NCBI GenBank assembly: GCA_028289675.1
Contig: JANQOL010000864.1
Coordinates: 1 to 46,530 of the forward strand
Direction of reading: 5' to 3'
DNA length: 46,530 nucleotides
Origin: Pirellulaceae bacterium
Lineage (GTDB): Bacteria > Planctomycetota > Planctomycetia > Pirellulales > Pirellulaceae
The stretch's first letter is position 1. Each line of letters starts with the position of its first letter. Under the pieces are notes generated by a model, which did not search any database, was not told the origin of the DNA, and saw only the letters and a list, made by a program, of their open reading frames with translations. The position numbers and the translations under genes are program-made. Below are positions 7,690 to 44,244 of this stretch, in pieces.

Positions 7690-8664
7690 TTATTCCGGTC
7701 GACTGGGCCGTTGTCCGCCTCGTCCACCGCCGGGGCCGCCCTGTCCACCTGGACGACCGCCAAAGCCGCGTCCGCCTCCGGGGCCTCCAGATCCACCTGG
7801 GCCACCCGGACCGCGCTGGCCAATTTGATTCGCCAGCTCAGTCAGTTCCGTCTTGTCGAGTTTCCCGTCGTTGTCTTTGTCAAAACCCATGGCCATGCTG
7901 ACAAACTGCTCCGGACTGGGCCGACCTCGACCACCAGGACCACCTTCACCAGGACCTCCAGGACCGCCGCGACCACCAGGACCACCTTCACCGGGGCCTC
8001 CAGGACCGCGACCGCCCGGCCCGCCGGCACCGGGGCCACCAGCCCCGGGACCACCGGCTCCACGACCACCGCTGCGTTCCGCGGCGCGACTGGCCATCTG
8101 TTTCAGTTCGTCAGCACCCAGCGCATCATCACCGTCTTCGTCGAAGCGGGAGATGATGTTGCGCATGCGTTCCGGCAGCTCATCTGCCGAGACCTTCCCA
8201 TCGTCATTGTCGTCGAATGCCATCAAGCGAGCCGTAAAATCCTGACCGCCACCAGCTCCGGCGCCCCGCCCTTCTCCGCGGCCAGGCCCCCGCTCGCCGC
8301 GTTCGCCAGGTCCGCGCTCACCGGGTCCTCTGTCACCTGGCCCTCGGCCAACGGATTCTCGGTCGCCCGGTCCGCGCCCACGTCCGCCTTCACCGGGAGG
8401 GCCACCAGGACCGCCTTCAGGATGAATCTCATCGTGCGTCAGTTGGCCATCTTTGTTGCTGTCCAGTGCCAACAGTGCCTTGGTCGCATTGCGAATCTCT
8501 TGCTTGGAGATCTTGTGGTCACCATCGGCATCCAGGGCTTCCATGATCGGATTTGGTGGGGGACCTCCGGGGCCTCCGAATCCACCGCCTTCTCGCGGAG
8601 GTTGGGCCAGTGCCGGAGAGGCGGCCAACATGGCCACAGCCGGTAGTTTCAGTATGAGCTTCAT
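7690..8664 (-). CDS. EF-hand domain protein with long Gly/Pro-rich linkers, secreted
   Basis: DADGDHKISKQEI, DSNKDGQLTHDEI, DDNDDGKVSADEL, DEDGDDALGADEL, DKDNDGKLDKTEL EF-hand loops; GGPGGPGEGGPGGRG repeats. Confidence 0.85.
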   Translation of the reverse strand: MKLILKLPAVAMLAASPALAQPPREGGGFGGPGGPPPNPIMEALDADGDHKISKQEIRNATKALLALDSNKDGQLTHDEIHPEGGPGGPPGEGGRGRGPGDRESVGRGPGDRGPGERGPGERGERGPGRGEGRGAGAGGGQDFTARLMAFDDNDDGKVSADELPERMRNIISRFDEDGDDALGADELKQMASRAAERSGGRGAGGPGAGGPGAGGPGGRGPGGPGEGGPGGRGGPGGPGEGGPGGRGRPSPEQFVSMAMGFDKDNDGKLDKTELTELANQIGQRGPGGPGGSGGPGGGRGFGGRPGGQGGPGGGRGGQRPSRPE

Positions 8665-8686: not shown

Positions 8687-10015
8687 TTACTTGGAAGAGA
8701 TACAGTAGAGATGTTCATTCGAACGAATGAACAGTGTGTCTTCGCTAAGCGCGGGAGTCGCGTTGAAATCCGATTCGTCAGCCGACAAGATGTTGTGCGC
8801 CAATTGCTCAAACTCAGGCTTGGCTGATAGCACAAACGCCCCGCTCCGGCGGCTAAAGACAATCCAGCGATCCCCGGCCAGGACGGGAGATCCGTAGAAC
8901 GGTCGACCTCCTGATTGAACATCATCCAGCCGTTCTCGATACACCAAATCTCCGGTGTCAGCGTTCGCACAGAATGCCAAACCGCGGTCGTCGATCCAGT
9001 ACAGATGTCCGGCATGCAGCAGCGGCGTCGCCACGTAAGAGCTATTGCGGCTGGTCCACAGTACGTGGGTCTGACTGACATCGCCCGAACCGCCGGCACG
9101 GATCGCATGGCTACCAGACGAGCGATAGCCACCGAAGACATAAATCACATCCTGGGGACCAGCCACGATGCTGGGACAGATGTTACCCGTGAGCCGGGTC
9201 TCCGCATACCAATTTAGTTTTCCAGTGTCTGGATTCAGTCCCCAGACTTCACCGGGCACTCCAATAACTAACTCGGTGCGGCCATCGGTCAGTTCCACGA
9301 GCGTCGGTGTTCCATAAGCCAACTCCAGAGAGCCGGCTTCGGCCTTCCAACGCTCTTCACCGGTTGCTTTGTCCAAAGCCCGTATCGATTGACTCTCCTC
9401 GGACGCGTTGACGATCACGGTGTCTTGGTAAACGATCAAGCTGGCGGCTGATCCCCATTGGCGGTTGCTGGATTCGCTGCCAACATCTACCTGCCACTGT
9501 TGATTGCCTTGCATGTCGAAGGCGACCACACCCGATTTTCCGAAGAACGCGAAAACTTGTTGGCCATCACTAACGGGCGTGCTGCTGGCGTATCCGTGTT
9601 CGGTGATGTAGCCGCGATACGGATCTTCCGGCTGTTTGGCATCGACGGATGCCGACCATAACAACCTTCCATCATGGCGATCAAAACATAGCAGCTCACG
9701 TGCTGTGGGAGTCGAGTCTCCGCGATACACGGTCGCCAACACCTTGTCATCGACCACAATCGGACTGGACGAACCGGCTCCCGGCAGGCGTGCTTTCCAC
9801 AGAATGTTTTGGTCGTCGTTCCACACCAGCGGCAGCTTGGCTTGCGGTGCTGCGGCAGCCGCTCGCGGCCCCAAGAACTGTCGCCAGTCTTCGGCTACAA
9901 CGACCGGTGACGCCGCCCAACCGGCAACGATGACACTGCACAAGCAGCTCGCGATCGATCGTGTCATCACCCAAGGTCGTTGATTTGAAAAGTTGGTCAT
10001 GGGCATAAGAGTCAA
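8687..10015 (-). CDS. PQQ-binding-like beta-propeller repeat protein, secreted
   Basis: 442 aa; EDWRQFLGPRAAAAAPQAKLPLVWNDDQNILWKARLPGAGSSSPIVVDDKV typical of the family. Confidence 0.85.
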   Translation of the reverse strand: MTLMPMTNFSNQRPWVMTRSIASCLCSVIVAGWAASPVVVAEDWRQFLGPRAAAAAPQAKLPLVWNDDQNILWKARLPGAGSSSPIVVDDKVLATVYRGDSTPTARELLCFDRHDGRLLWSASVDAKQPEDPYRGYITEHGYASSTPVSDGQQVFAFFGKSGVVAFDMQGNQQWQVDVGSESSNRQWGSAASLIVYQDTVIVNASEESQSIRALDKATGEERWKAEAGSLELAYGTPTLVELTDGRTELVIGVPGEVWGLNPDTGKLNWYAETRLTGNICPSIVAGPQDVIYVFGGYRSSGSHAIRAGGSGDVSQTHVLWTSRNSSYVATPLLHAGHLYWIDDRGLAFCANADTGDLVYRERLDDVQSGGRPFYGSPVLAGDRWIVFSRRSGAFVLSAKPEFEQLAHNILSADESDFNATPALSEDTLFIRSNEHLYCISSK

Positions 10016-10033: not shown

Positions 10034-11116
10034 CTATCTGCTTTGGCGGCCGCGTACACGTTCTTTCGCCTGCAATGACTGCACGTCGGTTTCGGGAATC
10101 TCCGACTCCCATTCGATTCCCAACTGAATCCCCAGTTGCACATGATTGTCATGCCCTTTTTCGGATCGGGGCATATCGGCAACCGCCTGCAGCAGTCCGT
10201 GCTTCAGCTGAGCAGTCGATTCGTCTCCGGTGAACTGAGCCAATACTTTGCCGGACAAGCCGAACGGGCCGGGATCAACCGCAACGATACGACTACCTTG
10301 TTCAACTCCACGAACAGGTTTAAGTTCCTCTGGCCGAGTCACAAAACAATAAACAAACTGACCCGCCAACGCCTCGGACCATGCAGCCGGAACCAGGCGC
10401 TGGCAGAGCCCAGCTCGCTCCGCCGGTGTGTCACCTCGGACGATCAACATCGGAAGTCCATCGGCAGCGGCTACGTTCAGAGCAATGTCTAAGCTCTTCA
10501 TGAACGGCAGCTCGGTGTCCGTAAGCGCATGCTTAGCAGCTTGGGGATATTTGGCGGCAATCTTGCGCATGCCGTCGGCCATGCTACGGCTGCCTCGGAA
10601 CGCGTGAAACGGACCACGCCCCGCAGCCGTCAACTTCGTTCGTCCGTTCGGAGTCAGAATGGCAAACGTGGTGTTCTCCAGTTGTCCCGAACGTCCCACG
10701 TAAACTGACTTCATGAACTCTGCTTCGGCAGCGTCTTCATAGGTCGCCAAGCGAATACACACAAACTGACGGGAAGCTTCCACAACGCTAGCGTCGGACA
10801 GGAAACTCCTGTCCATTCCTTGCTTGCCCGGTCACCAAATCCCAGGAACCCCCAAGCACTGCGGGGCACCGGATACAAACAAGATTGGTCGCTGACTGCG
10901 TTTGGCCTCCGCCAGCCCACTCTTCAAGGTTCCGTACCAGGCAATTTTGGGTGGTGCAATTTTGGGTGGTGCAATTTTGGACGGCGCTAGTCTGGACGGT
11001 GCACTTGCGGCCGGTGCGTCGCTCGCGCGGGACGTCCCTGGAGTGCCGTCCTGAGCATGAGCAGACTGCCAACCGACGACGACTAAGAGGGCAAGCAATG
11101 GCGAAATCCGACGCAT
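10034..11116 (-). CDS. candidate selenocysteine-containing thioredoxin-like exported protein (TGA at 10832-10834 read as Sec)
   Basis: ORFs 10832..11116 and 10034..10816 are in the same frame and separated only by TGA CCG GGC AAG CAA GGA; joined product ...RPILFVSGAPQCLGVPGIW-U-PGKQGMDRSFLSDASVVEASRQFVCIRLATYEDA...; SECIS-like hairpin immediately downstream of the TGA. Confidence 0.75.
10796..10814 (-). promoter_or_regulatory. candidate bacterial SECIS element
   Basis: Minus strand GGACAGGA-GTT-TCCTGTCC: perfect 8-bp stem, GU-containing loop beginning 25 nt after the TGA. Confidence 0.65.
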
Positions 11117-11411
11117 GATGCTGGTCCTGGTTTAAATGGCCTGGGAGAGTTGTCTGGGACAAAGCTCTCCTGATCGAGGTTTCTCGGGGCGCGAAGCTCA
11201 CTAACTGAGAAAACGAGCGAGGCGTCCACAGGCAAACTGGGATTTTGACTCAAAATCTGCGACATTCTCGTCGCGATCTCCCTGGGTCGGAAAGAAGACG
11301 AAAGTCGCTCCAAGAATCCACGTTTCCTAACGAAACCTTAGCGCTTGCCGGGAGTTTACCTTGTCCGATGAGCGTCGCGCCGCCCATTCCGGCGGGCTAC
11401 CATGGAACGTT

Positions 11412-12056
11412 ATGATCCACGAAAACCAGCAACACGAAGACCCGCAGATCGAAGCCCAGTTGGATCTGCTGCGACACGGCGGAGACCAGGCGGTTGCCGA
11501 CCTGTTCCAACAAGTGCGCCCCCAACTGGAGCGGATGGTGAATTTCCGGATGGATCGCCGGCTGGTCGGTCGAGTCGACGCGGCAGACATCTTGCAAGAA
11601 GCCTATCTGGAAGTCGCTCGGCGGGTGAACGAATATCTGCAATCGCCAACTTGCTCCTTCTTCGTGTGGGCCCGCCAGATTACCTGGCAGCGTTTACTTA
11701 CCGTGCACCGCGCCCAATTGGGAGCGCAAAAACGAGATGCAGGCCGGGAAGTTCATTGCGGTCAGCTCGGTCCCATGGATGCCACTTCGATCTCCTTGGC
11801 TTCGATGCTGGTCGGCGACGCGACCTCACCCAGTCAAGCGGCGATGCGCAACGAACGAGCCGATCGCTTGCGGGCTGCCTTGGAAAGCATGGAACTCCTG
11901 GACCGAGAGGTGCTGGCGCTACGCCATTTCGAACAGCTGAGTAACCAAGACGTTTCCGCCGTTCTGCAAATCAGCAAGACGGCTGCCAGCAATCGCTACG
12001 TCCGAGCACTCGATCGATTGAGGGAACTGTTGCAAGAGGTCCCCGAGCAATCATGA
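11412..12056 (+). CDS. ECF-type RNA polymerase sigma factor
   Basis: RVDAADILQEAYLEVARRVNEYL...FFVWARQITWQRLLTVHR...LDREVLALRHFEQLSNQDVSAVLQISKTAASNRYVRALDRLR. Confidence 0.9.
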   Translation: MIHENQQHEDPQIEAQLDLLRHGGDQAVADLFQQVRPQLERMVNFRMDRRLVGRVDAADILQEAYLEVARRVNEYLQSPTCSFFVWARQITWQRLLTVHRAQLGAQKRDAGREVHCGQLGPMDATSISLASMLVGDATSPSQAAMRNERADRLRAALESMELLDREVLALRHFEQLSNQDVSAVLQISKTAASNRYVRALDRLRELLQEVPEQS

Positions 12057-15000
12057 ACGAACCGCAGGAGACTGATTCGCCGACAGCAGGAACTGACTTC
12101 GATGCTTTAGTGGAAGAATTCACTGCCAGCTGCCGTCGAGGTTCCGCAGGGTCTGTCGAAGAGTACGCTCAGCGCTTCCCAGCGCTGGCTGACAAGATTC
12201 GGCGACTGTTCCCCTCTATCGCCATGATGGAACAGTTGGTGGAACGTGAAAGTGCGGAACGAAGATACACCTTGTCCCACAGCGGGAGGCCTTCCCAGCT
12301 GCCGATCGAGCGCATTGGTGATTACCGGCTCGTCCGAGAAATCGGTCGAGGCGGCATGGGCGTCGTTTACGAAGCAGCGCAAGAGTCGCTGGGGCGTCGG
12401 GTAGCGGTCAAAGTACTGGCGCAACAAGCGCTGTTGGCGGACAAACACATCCAAAGGTTCCACCGCGAAGCCCGCACTGCAGCCAGCTTGCACCATACCA
12501 ATATTGTCCCCGTCTTCGGCGTTGGTGAACATGACGGCTATCACTACTACGTGATGCAATTGATTCACGGCGCGGGGCTGGACGAGGTACTTCGCGCGCT
12601 GAGAGCCATGGCTGCCACTGGCGGCCAGCTTTGGCACTCCAGCACCCAACCGCAAGATGCGGATTCAACCCAACCTTTGTCCGATCAAGCACAGCGAGTC
12701 GCGCAGGCGCTGCAAAGTGGAACTTTCGCGGGTTCCGATTCAACCGTCGCAGACGTTTGGCATAAAGCAGACACCGCACCGGTCCGTGACGCGACCCTGC
12801 ACACGACCGGCAACGCAGCTAACGATTCACCGACGAAAGGCGAGGCATTGCCACACGCTCTGGAAGGTGAACCCGAAGATGGCGTCGCCACTACTGAGAC
12901 TTCGCCGACGTTTCCTGGCGTGGGGACCAGTTATTGGCACAGCGTGGCACGGATCGCGTTGCAGGTGGCTGGCGGGCTGCAGTACGCCCACCAACACGGC
13001 AAGTTGCATCGCGATGTGAAGCCCGCGAATCTGCTGTTGGATACGCAAGGCGTCACTTGGGTAGCCGACTTTGGACTCGCCAAAGCCATCGAGCAAGATG
13101 ACGTCAGCCGCACCGGTGACGTGGTCGGCACGCTGCGCTACATGGCGCCCGAACAGTTCGCCGGCGAACCAGATCATCGCAGCGATATTTACAGTCTGGG
13201 ACTCACGCTGTACGAGCTACTCACTCTGCAACCAGCGTACGAGACGACCAGTCTAGCCCATCTGCTGTCGGATCATGCTCGGCGCCGGCGCGTGGACCCG
13301 CCCCGGCTACTGAATCCCAAGATCCCCGTCGACTTGGAGACGATCACTCTCAAGGCGATTGAAAGTGAGCCAGACCAAAGATATCAGTCGGCAGGCGCTC
13401 TGGCAGCTGATCTCAGGCGTTTTCTAAACGACGAACCTATCTTGGCGCGCTCCACAACAACCTGGACTCGATTGCGCAAGTGGTGCCGGCGTAATCCAGC
13501 CGTTGCCAGTTTGTCAGGTTTAGCCGCCGGGTTGTTGATCCTGGTGGCCATCTCCACATCCTGGGGCTATTGGCGGACCACCGCGGCCTTGCAACGAGAA
13601 TCGCAAGAACGAGAACGGGCCTTGGGCGAACAGGAGAAGGCCGAACGCACGTTGAGCATTTCTTTGGAGGCTTTGGACAAGGTCTATACGCGGCTCGCTC
13701 CTCAACGCATGCCCTCGTCTGCCGTCATCACCCTGGACGACGAGGATGATGACCAGGCCGAGGTACTGCCACAACCGGTGGTTTCACAAGAGACCGCCGC
13801 ACTGCTGGAAGACCTGTTGGATTTCTACGATCGGCTGGCGGCCTCGGACAGCCAAAACGTACAGCTTAAACAGGAATCAGCAAAAGCAAATCGCCGCATC
13901 GGAGACATTCAACAGCGTTTGGGAAACTTCCAGCGGGCTGAATCAGCTTACCGCCTGGCGATCCAGAAGTTCGAAGAACTTCGGCGGTCGGCAGCGGCAC
14001 CAGCGTTGACTCTACAGATCGCTCAAATTCACAATGAACTGGGCACTGTTTTGCGATCTCGCCAATTGCACCGTGAATCCCAAAGCGCGTTCGCTTCAGC
14101 CATGAGCGTGCTCGCCGAGTATCGAGATAGTCAGGATTTCTCGGCCGTCACGGACGACCTGAAATTCGAGTTAGCCCGCACTCTCTACTTGCGTAGCCAG
14201 CGAAAGCCAGGACAAGATCCGGGACAACCGCCGGGCCCGCCAGGACGACCCGGTGGTCCTGAGGGGCCGCCACCGCCGGGCTGGTCCGTCGAGCATGGCG
14301 ACCAACCGCCGCCCGACCGGCATGCAGTTCGATCTCCGCGAGGTGACGATTCGGCCCGCCGAGAATCCCATGGGCGGGGCGATCGGCAACCGAAGGATTG
14401 GCGGCATGATCGGCCACCGGGACCGCCGCACGAACGTCATCCGACCAAGCGGCATGCTCCCGAACATGGACGATCGCGCGACGCCATTAAGTCCGCCATA
14501 GAGATCTTGACCGAGCTGTCCGAGCGGCATCCCAACCCCAAATACACTTATATGTTGGCCCTGTGCCACCGTGAACTCAGTCGCGACGGACACTCGATCG
14601 AAGCCCACCAAGCGGTCCAATTGTTGGAGCAACTTTGCCAGGATTATCCGGACATCGCTGACTACAAACACGAGCTGTCCGAAACCTACGCCATGGTTGA
14701 CGTCCGGCGAGTGCGCCCCGCCGATGCGGCAGACGCTATCGAGCCGTTGAGCGAGGCCCTCAAATTGGCTGAGGAAGTACATCAGCAGCATCCCAACTTA
14801 CCAACCTACGCTCAAAGCCTTGCTCACATCCACCATAAACTGGGCACAGCTTGCATGGTCTCAGCCACGATGATGCCGGCCACTAGAAGATCGCCAGATG
14901 GGAAATCAGCATCCAGGAACAAACAGCTCGACCGCGCCCAGCACCACTACCGAAACGCCGTTGAAATCCAAGGGCGACTAACTCAACAGTTCCCCGACGT

Positions 15001-15226
15001 AGTCGTTGTCGAACTTTGGTTGGCCCGCATGCGCCAGTCTCTGTCGGAAGTTTACGCCCAACGTGGTCAGTGGGATCAATATCGCAGCGTCCGTGCTGAT
15101 GCCACCGATGGACTCCGCCGTCTGTTGGAACGCCAACCGAGTGCGTCGTTCGTACGTAGTCACTTGCGCCAGTTGGAACGTCGACCACCGCCGGCACCTC
15201 GAAGCGGCGCTCCGCCAAATCGATAA
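12053..15226 (+). CDS. serine/threonine protein kinase with C-terminal TPR-like region
   Basis: IGDYRLVREIGRGGMGVVYEAAQ, VAVKVLAQQ, LHRDVKPANLLLD, DFGLAKAIE; 4-bp ATGA overlap with the sigma factor; TM segment. Confidence 0.92.
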   Translation: MNEPQETDSPTAGTDFDALVEEFTASCRRGSAGSVEEYAQRFPALADKIRRLFPSIAMMEQLVERESAERRYTLSHSGRPSQLPIERIGDYRLVREIGRGGMGVVYEAAQESLGRRVAVKVLAQQALLADKHIQRFHREARTAASLHHTNIVPVFGVGEHDGYHYYVMQLIHGAGLDEVLRALRAMAATGGQLWHSSTQPQDADSTQPLSDQAQRVAQALQSGTFAGSDSTVADVWHKADTAPVRDATLHTTGNAANDSPTKGEALPHALEGEPEDGVATTETSPTFPGVGTSYWHSVARIALQVAGGLQYAHQHGKLHRDVKPANLLLDTQGVTWVADFGLAKAIEQDDVSRTGDVVGTLRYMAPEQFAGEPDHRSDIYSLGLTLYELLTLQPAYETTSLAHLLSDHARRRRVDPPRLLNPKIPVDLETITLKAIESEPDQRYQSAGALAADLRRFLNDEPILARSTTTWTRLRKWCRRNPAVASLSGLAAGLLILVAISTSWGYWRTTAALQRESQERERALGEQEKAERTLSISLEALDKVYTRLAPQRMPSSAVITLDDEDDDQAEVLPQPVVSQETAALLEDLLDFYDRLAASDSQNVQLKQESAKANRRIGDIQQRLGNFQRAESAYRLAIQKFEELRRSAAAPALTLQIAQIHNELGTVLRSRQLHRESQSAFASAMSVLAEYRDSQDFSAVTDDLKFELARTLYLRSQRKPGQDPGQPPGPPGRPGGPEGPPPPGWSVEHGDQPPPDRHAVRSPRGDDSARRESHGRGDRQPKDWRHDRPPGPPHERHPTKRHAPEHGRSRDAIKSAIEILTELSERHPNPKYTYMLALCHRELSRDGHSIEAHQAVQLLEQLCQDYPDIADYKHELSETYAMVDVRRVRPADAADAIEPLSEALKLAEEVHQQHPNLPTYAQSLAHIHHKLGTACMVSATMMPATRRSPDGKSASRNKQLDRAQHHYRNAVEIQGRLTQQFPDVVVVELWLARMRQSLSEVYAQRGQWDQYRSVRADATDGLRRLLERQPSASFVRSHLRQLERRPPPAPRSGAPPNR

Positions 15227-44151: not shown

Positions 44152-44244
44152 GCAGAACGATTGCGATCACCGAGTCGCGGCGAGTTGATTTTCCATTGCC
44201 AAAAAACTCGGCTACCGCGACTTCGGTGGATCGCTTGGTTCTGC
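44152..44244 (-). repeat. attC-like site
   Basis: GCAGAACG...GCGATCACCGAGTCGCGG...CCGCGACTTCGGTGGATCGC..GTTCTGC: 7-bp perfect terminal complement and long inner stem. Confidence 0.7.

Follow-up and report, generated by a model that had tools for sequence, protein, structure and literature searches.

Does the in-frame TGA at positions 10834-10832 of the minus strand end a protein, or is it decoded as an amino acid? The question is raised by two open reading frames (ORFs) in the window (the whole stretch of DNA analysed, 46,530 nucleotides), located at 10832..11116 and 10034..10816 of the minus strand. As proposed in the initial annotation, they share one frame and are separated by the TGA and five sense codons (CCG GGC AAG CAA GGA), which are followed by the downstream ATG. 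Our answer is that the gene product is very probably an exported, selenocysteine-containing redox protein. The whole explanation, in which UGA95 would be decoded by SelB in an exported protein with tandem thioredoxin domains and a redox role in the cell envelope, is given a probability of about 0.93; its selenocysteine (Sec) insertion is deduced from sequence, its fold from a predicted model.

The reading frame and its homologs

Standard translation splits the gene, as had been foreseen, into an ORF of 94 amino acids and a separate ORF starting at the downstream ATG. This is what would be obtained if the TGA were a real stop, with the 94-residue amino-terminal piece as the product, or if the gene were a pseudogene or contained a sequencing error. 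When the TGA is translated as U, the gene (10034..11116, minus strand) encodes a protein of 360 residues, putatively exported and predicted to have a tandem thioredoxin fold. It contains a single U, at position 95, in the context APQCLGVPGIW-U-PGKQGMDRSFL. The cysteine that had been noticed eight residues before the U is Cys87, so that the motif can be written as QCLGVPGIW-U-PGK (C-x7-U). The protein begins with a putative Sec-type signal peptide, MRRISPLLALLVVVGWQSAHA, with an AHA cleavage motif (11054..11116, minus strand), recognised by eye in the translation; this is followed by a low-complexity linker and, from about residue 59, a conserved region. Since TGA also ends neighbouring genes in the normal way, for example that of the ECF sigma factor (11361-12056), a simple reassignment of the genetic code does not apply.

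The same TGA is present at the exact W-U-P-G column in more than 140 separately assembled homologous genes, and the sequence past it stays conserved and in frame. These genes belong to Planctomycetota, Verrucomicrobiota, Vulcanimicrobiota (Eremiobacterota) and other MAGs. Searching 60 genomes, namely that of the window and those of relatives, gave nine loci; eight or nine homologous genes contain the column, all with an in-frame TGA, one genome has two copies and one carboxy-terminal fragment does not contain the column. Scanning the GTDB contig set yielded 98 relatives, of which 80 were kept, from Planctomycetota, Verrucomicrobiota, Vulcanimicrobiota (Eremiobacterota) and a few MAGs labelled Actinomycetota or Proteobacteria, single-contig labels that may be wrong. 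Strong matches were counted by hand in 53 of the 392 genomes of a phylum sample, while in a family sample (Pirellulaceae) matches at E<=1e-20 were present in 61 of 241.

At 99 unique homologous sites, the codon is TGA in 97 and TGT in two. The full-length genes of the family sample all have one TGA except for three with TGT (Cys), all from one genus (G519, G527 and G531). Overall, five full-length Cys loci were found, restricted to a small Pirellulaceae clade, although some of these may be the same gene. No residue other than Sec (TGA) or Cys (TGT) was present at the column among the homologs examined, and homology continues on both sides of it, as the initial annotation had expected of a true selenoprotein. 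Since the homologs were sought with a query that had Cys in this position, the predominance of TGA is not an obvious effect of ascertainment. Conservation of an in-frame TGA together with the sequence on both sides of it is, on comparative grounds, far beyond chance.

Second TGAs in three homologs (L067, L095 and L134) were considered as additional Sec codons and rejected, as they are ordinary terminal stops; the contexts of the second TGAs at L114 and L124 are the same. At three loci (L063, L088 and G649:C186) the selenoprotein gene is present in tandem, and every copy has a TGA of its own. A search for plasmid copies of the gene found none.

Selenocysteine machinery, hairpin and cysteine forms

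The genome of the window contains the components that the initial annotation had named for Sec insertion: selA (E=3.4e-120), selB (322 bits over its cut-off) and selD, all on one contig (C810), and a tRNA-Sec (selC) scoring 73.9 bits with the anticodon TCA. In the phylum sample, selB scores over the cut-off in 51 of the 53 genomes carrying the gene, versus 184 of the 339 non-carriers (Fisher p=1.8e-10, a value that ignores shared ancestry). Four carriers (G338, G395, G016 and G600) have no selB over the cut-off, and these were considered as cases of the Sec form in genomes truly devoid of selB. All four contain tRNA-Sec and three, the exception being G016, a strong selA; assembly gaps are thus the likely reason and the candidates were dismissed.

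Starting 17 nt past the UGA, RNA folding predicts a SECIS-like hairpin, GGACAGG-AGUUU-CCUGUCC (10796..10814, minus strand), with a 7-bp stem and the loop AGUUU located 24 nt from the UGA. The first 48 nt fold at -16.1 kcal/mol. In its loop distance from the UGA, the G at loop position two and its stable stem, the hairpin agrees with the bSECIS model as quoted in PMC13188914; a search of Rfam with the hairpin gave no match. Across 91 sequences, 93.7% of the cells of the stem are paired, versus 28-60% when the partner is slid by 1-3 nt. The stem occurs in compensatory haplotypes, GGACAGG/CCUGUCC, GGACCAG/CUGGUCC and GGACGAG/CUUGUCC, the last two of which encode DQSLWS and DESFLS, respectively, where the protein of the window has DRSFLS. 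The SECIS would in this way visibly shape the protein, all three variants preserving the stem. With shuffles of synonymous codons as a control, folding is better than that of the sequence's own shuffles in 67 of 97 Sec forms (p<=0.05), with a median z of -2.9; for the other 30 the difference is not significant.

A subclade with the variant W-U-P-G-F (UPGF), called early-diverging, comprises L008, L085, L086, L098 and L103. Its hairpin is located later, with the loop about 32 nt past the UGA, and in L008, L085, L098 and L103 it folds no better than codon shuffles. A role for this later hairpin is weakly supported.

The full-length protein would also be produced if near-cognate read-through or a change of code placed a standard residue such as Trp or Arg at the UGA. 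Support for read-through as Trp or Arg was looked for and none was found. Trp, Arg and Gly are present at the column in no homolog, TGA being replaced by Cys alone, and UGA serves as a stop in the same genome and as the terminal stop of the homologs L067, L095 and L134. The conserved hairpin 3' of the UGA also argues against this reading, which we regard as highly improbable.

The two Cys rows of the phylogenetic tree group in a single clade (support 100/100) nested among Sec rows, so a single change suffices. Because all other branches are Sec, a change from Sec to Cys is the simpler direction in this tree of uncertain root. One of the two Cys forms has no hairpin and the other (L108) a weak one (p=0.03). 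The Cys-form genomes tested do not contain selB, and in the two that were checked for tRNA-Sec this was absent as well, while their SelA-like match is weak. This amounts to a natural experiment: genomes in which no Sec machinery is found have Cys at the column and a SECIS hairpin that is lost or much weaker. Many selenoprotein families have more Cys homologs than Sec forms, whereas here Sec is the rule and Cys the exception. That Cys is the only alternative at the column, confined to genomes without selB, and that the same TGA recurs in so many separately assembled genes ahead of a conserved, in-frame continuation, leaves almost no room for the TGA as a real stop. The selenoprotein reading is strongly supported by these computations.

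Predicted fold and active site

The first part of the protein matches the Pfam family Thioredoxin_7 (PF13899) with 29.0 bits, versus a curated cut-off of 27, and 61 of 67 family members match it at E<=0.01. No significant relatives were found in the PDB by sequence search. AlphaFold2, run on a 67-row alignment, gives a model with a pLDDT of 97 and a pTM of 0.94, containing two tandem thioredoxin-like domains in a PDI-like arrangement and a carboxy-terminal helix. In this model, Sec95 directly precedes the helix that comes after the first long strand, a position that in thioredoxins belongs to the nucleophilic Cys. In a Foldseek search, the first domain aligned with DsbD-gamma, AGR2 and ERp18, and the two domains together gave loose matches to PDI and ERp44.

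Apart from Sec95, the alignment has only two near-invariant cysteines. Cys87 (10856..10858, minus strand), the candidate resolving Cys of the C-x7-U motif, is present in 66 of the 67 rows; in the exception (L105) a Cys is located one position further upstream. Cys120 (10757..10759, minus strand), in the following strand (FVCIRL) and 25 residues past the Sec, is present in all 67. A classical redox pair, CxxC, UxxC or CxxU, was looked for in the same alignment and is absent. The alignment with the WCxxC region of thioredoxin put forward in the initial annotation therefore holds in part: both Pfam and the model place the U at the position of the first Cys, but the second Cys is missing and is Lys in most members (UPGK). 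Without this second Cys, the partner of the Sec must be Cys87 or Cys120.

In the mechanism that we propose, SelB and tRNA-Sec(UCA) would insert selenocysteine at UGA95 under the direction of the downstream hairpin. After its presumed export, the protein would fold into the two tandem thioredoxin domains, the first of which would be catalytic, with the Sec as the nucleophile, while the second, which has no conserved redox pair, would resemble the a-b part of protein disulfide isomerases. The Sec would most likely attack a disulfide, sulfenic acid or peroxide substrate, and the intermediate may be resolved by a selenenyl-sulfide between the Sec and Cys87 (across the C-x7-U loop) or Cys120, in place of the second Cys of CxxC. 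The protein may thus be a thiol/selenol oxidoreductase of the envelope or periplasm, either a reductase/isomerase or a peroxidase, with Cys87 or Cys120 as the resolving residue.

The absent CxxC partner would also fit a selenoprotein in which the Sec is a ligand for a metal or metalloid (copper or mercury, for instance, in the cell envelope) and the C-x7-U segment a binding loop, and PMC13188914 reports a share of selenoprotein families with predicted metal-binding capacity. The U is, on the other hand, at the canonical nucleophile position of the thioredoxin fold, with a Trp before it, and metal-transport neighbours do not recur among the loci. We consider a ligand role unlikely and prefer the redox enzyme.

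Gene neighbourhood and known relatives

In the window, the selenoprotein gene is the first of a same-strand row. After a gap of 18 bp it is followed by a gene for a PQQ/BamB-like beta-propeller (8687..10015, minus strand; PF13360, E=1.6e-28) and then by one for an exported Gly/Arg/Pro-rich protein with matches to Pfam EF-hand families (7690..8664, minus strand). Divergently oriented are genes that Pfam identifies as an ECF sigma factor (plus strand) and a Ser/Thr kinase (12053-15226, plus strand); the same pair lies next to the L029 homolog, and kinases are adjacent to those of L092-L094, L096, L097 and L107. Similar EF-hand proteins recur beside the homologs of L029-L031 and of Verrucomicrobiota. 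In all, roughly a dozen loci have an EF-hand protein close by, and roughly eight have a kinase or ECF sigma factor; EF-hand and DUF3500 proteins occur together in some other loci. The downstream gene differs among loci (PQQ propeller, EF-hand, DUF3500, sulfatase, GDPD or none). A conserved operon partner was thus ruled out, and because the neighbourhood is not conserved the substrate is a guess. Elsewhere in the window, region 19600-45000 contains a row of single ORFs, each about 190-300 amino acids long, mostly on the minus strand and separated by imperfect palindromes such as that at 44156-44240 (AACGATTGCGATCACCGAGTCGCGG...CCGCGACTTCGGTGGATCGCTTGGTT), an arrangement that resembles an integron (attC) gene-cassette array.

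The protein is thioredoxin-like, as first suggested, but it is no mere extension of a known Sec-thioredoxin family: it belongs to a two-domain family that falls outside both NCBIfam and the accessible part of a 2026 catalogue. Two described families could in principle include it. The VPGUxxT family (NF041382 and NF041383) is likewise a thioredoxin-like selenoprotein of similar length, with weak similarity in the first domain, and the Trx7/PDZ selenoprotein (NF041199) shares a Thioredoxin_7 type domain with Sec. The best score of the new sequences is 26.8 bits for NF041383, where the cut-offs of the VPGUxxT models are 350 and 275; for NF041199, with a cut-off of 300, the protein of the window scores 12.2 bits and its homologs at most 17.3. 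The cut-offs, 275-350 bits, are missed tenfold or more, and no NCBIfam model was matched at its cut-off. The Sec motifs also differ: in the VPGUxxT family the Sec comes right after VPG, but in ours two residues later (VPGxWU), and the new sequences lack the CxxU motif and the PDZ domain of the Trx7/PDZ selenoprotein. An unnamed family from early marine metagenome work is a further candidate, as a 2008 GOS table has a row labelled 'Unknown', made up of 15 Sec sequences and no Cys ones, that could be the same family (PMC2398784). The W-U-PGK motif is absent from the 119 selenoprotein families and subfamilies of the 2026 catalogue and review PMC13188914, as far as its accessible text goes, and no description of the family was found in the open-access literature, the coverage of which is incomplete. 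That the family has already been described is therefore, in our estimate, improbable.

With no NCBIfam match at cut-off and no place in the accessible catalogue, these genes apparently form a new family of selenoproteins that have a thioredoxin fold and a variant layout of the active site. The fuller proposal is of an undescribed, mostly Sec-using, exported PDI-like family with a Sec-Cys pair across the C-x7-U loop instead of CxxC, UxxC or CxxU, whose Cys forms have a single origin, in a lineage where Sec machinery is not detectable; to this we give even odds. Because standard annotation truncates the Sec-form genes, databases probably lack this protein or contain it cut short, in about a quarter of the Pirellulaceae genomes searched and in several other phyla. 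The prokaryotic selenoproteome would gain an exported selenoenzyme with a new Sec motif.

Compared with Thioredoxin_7, DsbD-gamma, AGR2 and ERp18-type domains, the fold of domain 1, the nucleophile position and the conserved Trp preceding it are alike. The new family differs in having Sec for Cys, Lys for the second Cys of CxxC, and an extended strand-to-helix loop that holds the near-invariant Cys87. With PDI and ERp44 it shares two consecutive thioredoxin-like domains, aligned by Foldseek over 270-300 columns; however, it is bacterial, putatively exported and very probably Sec-dependent, and the relative orientation of its domains is unlike theirs, with an rmsd above 15 Å over both domains.
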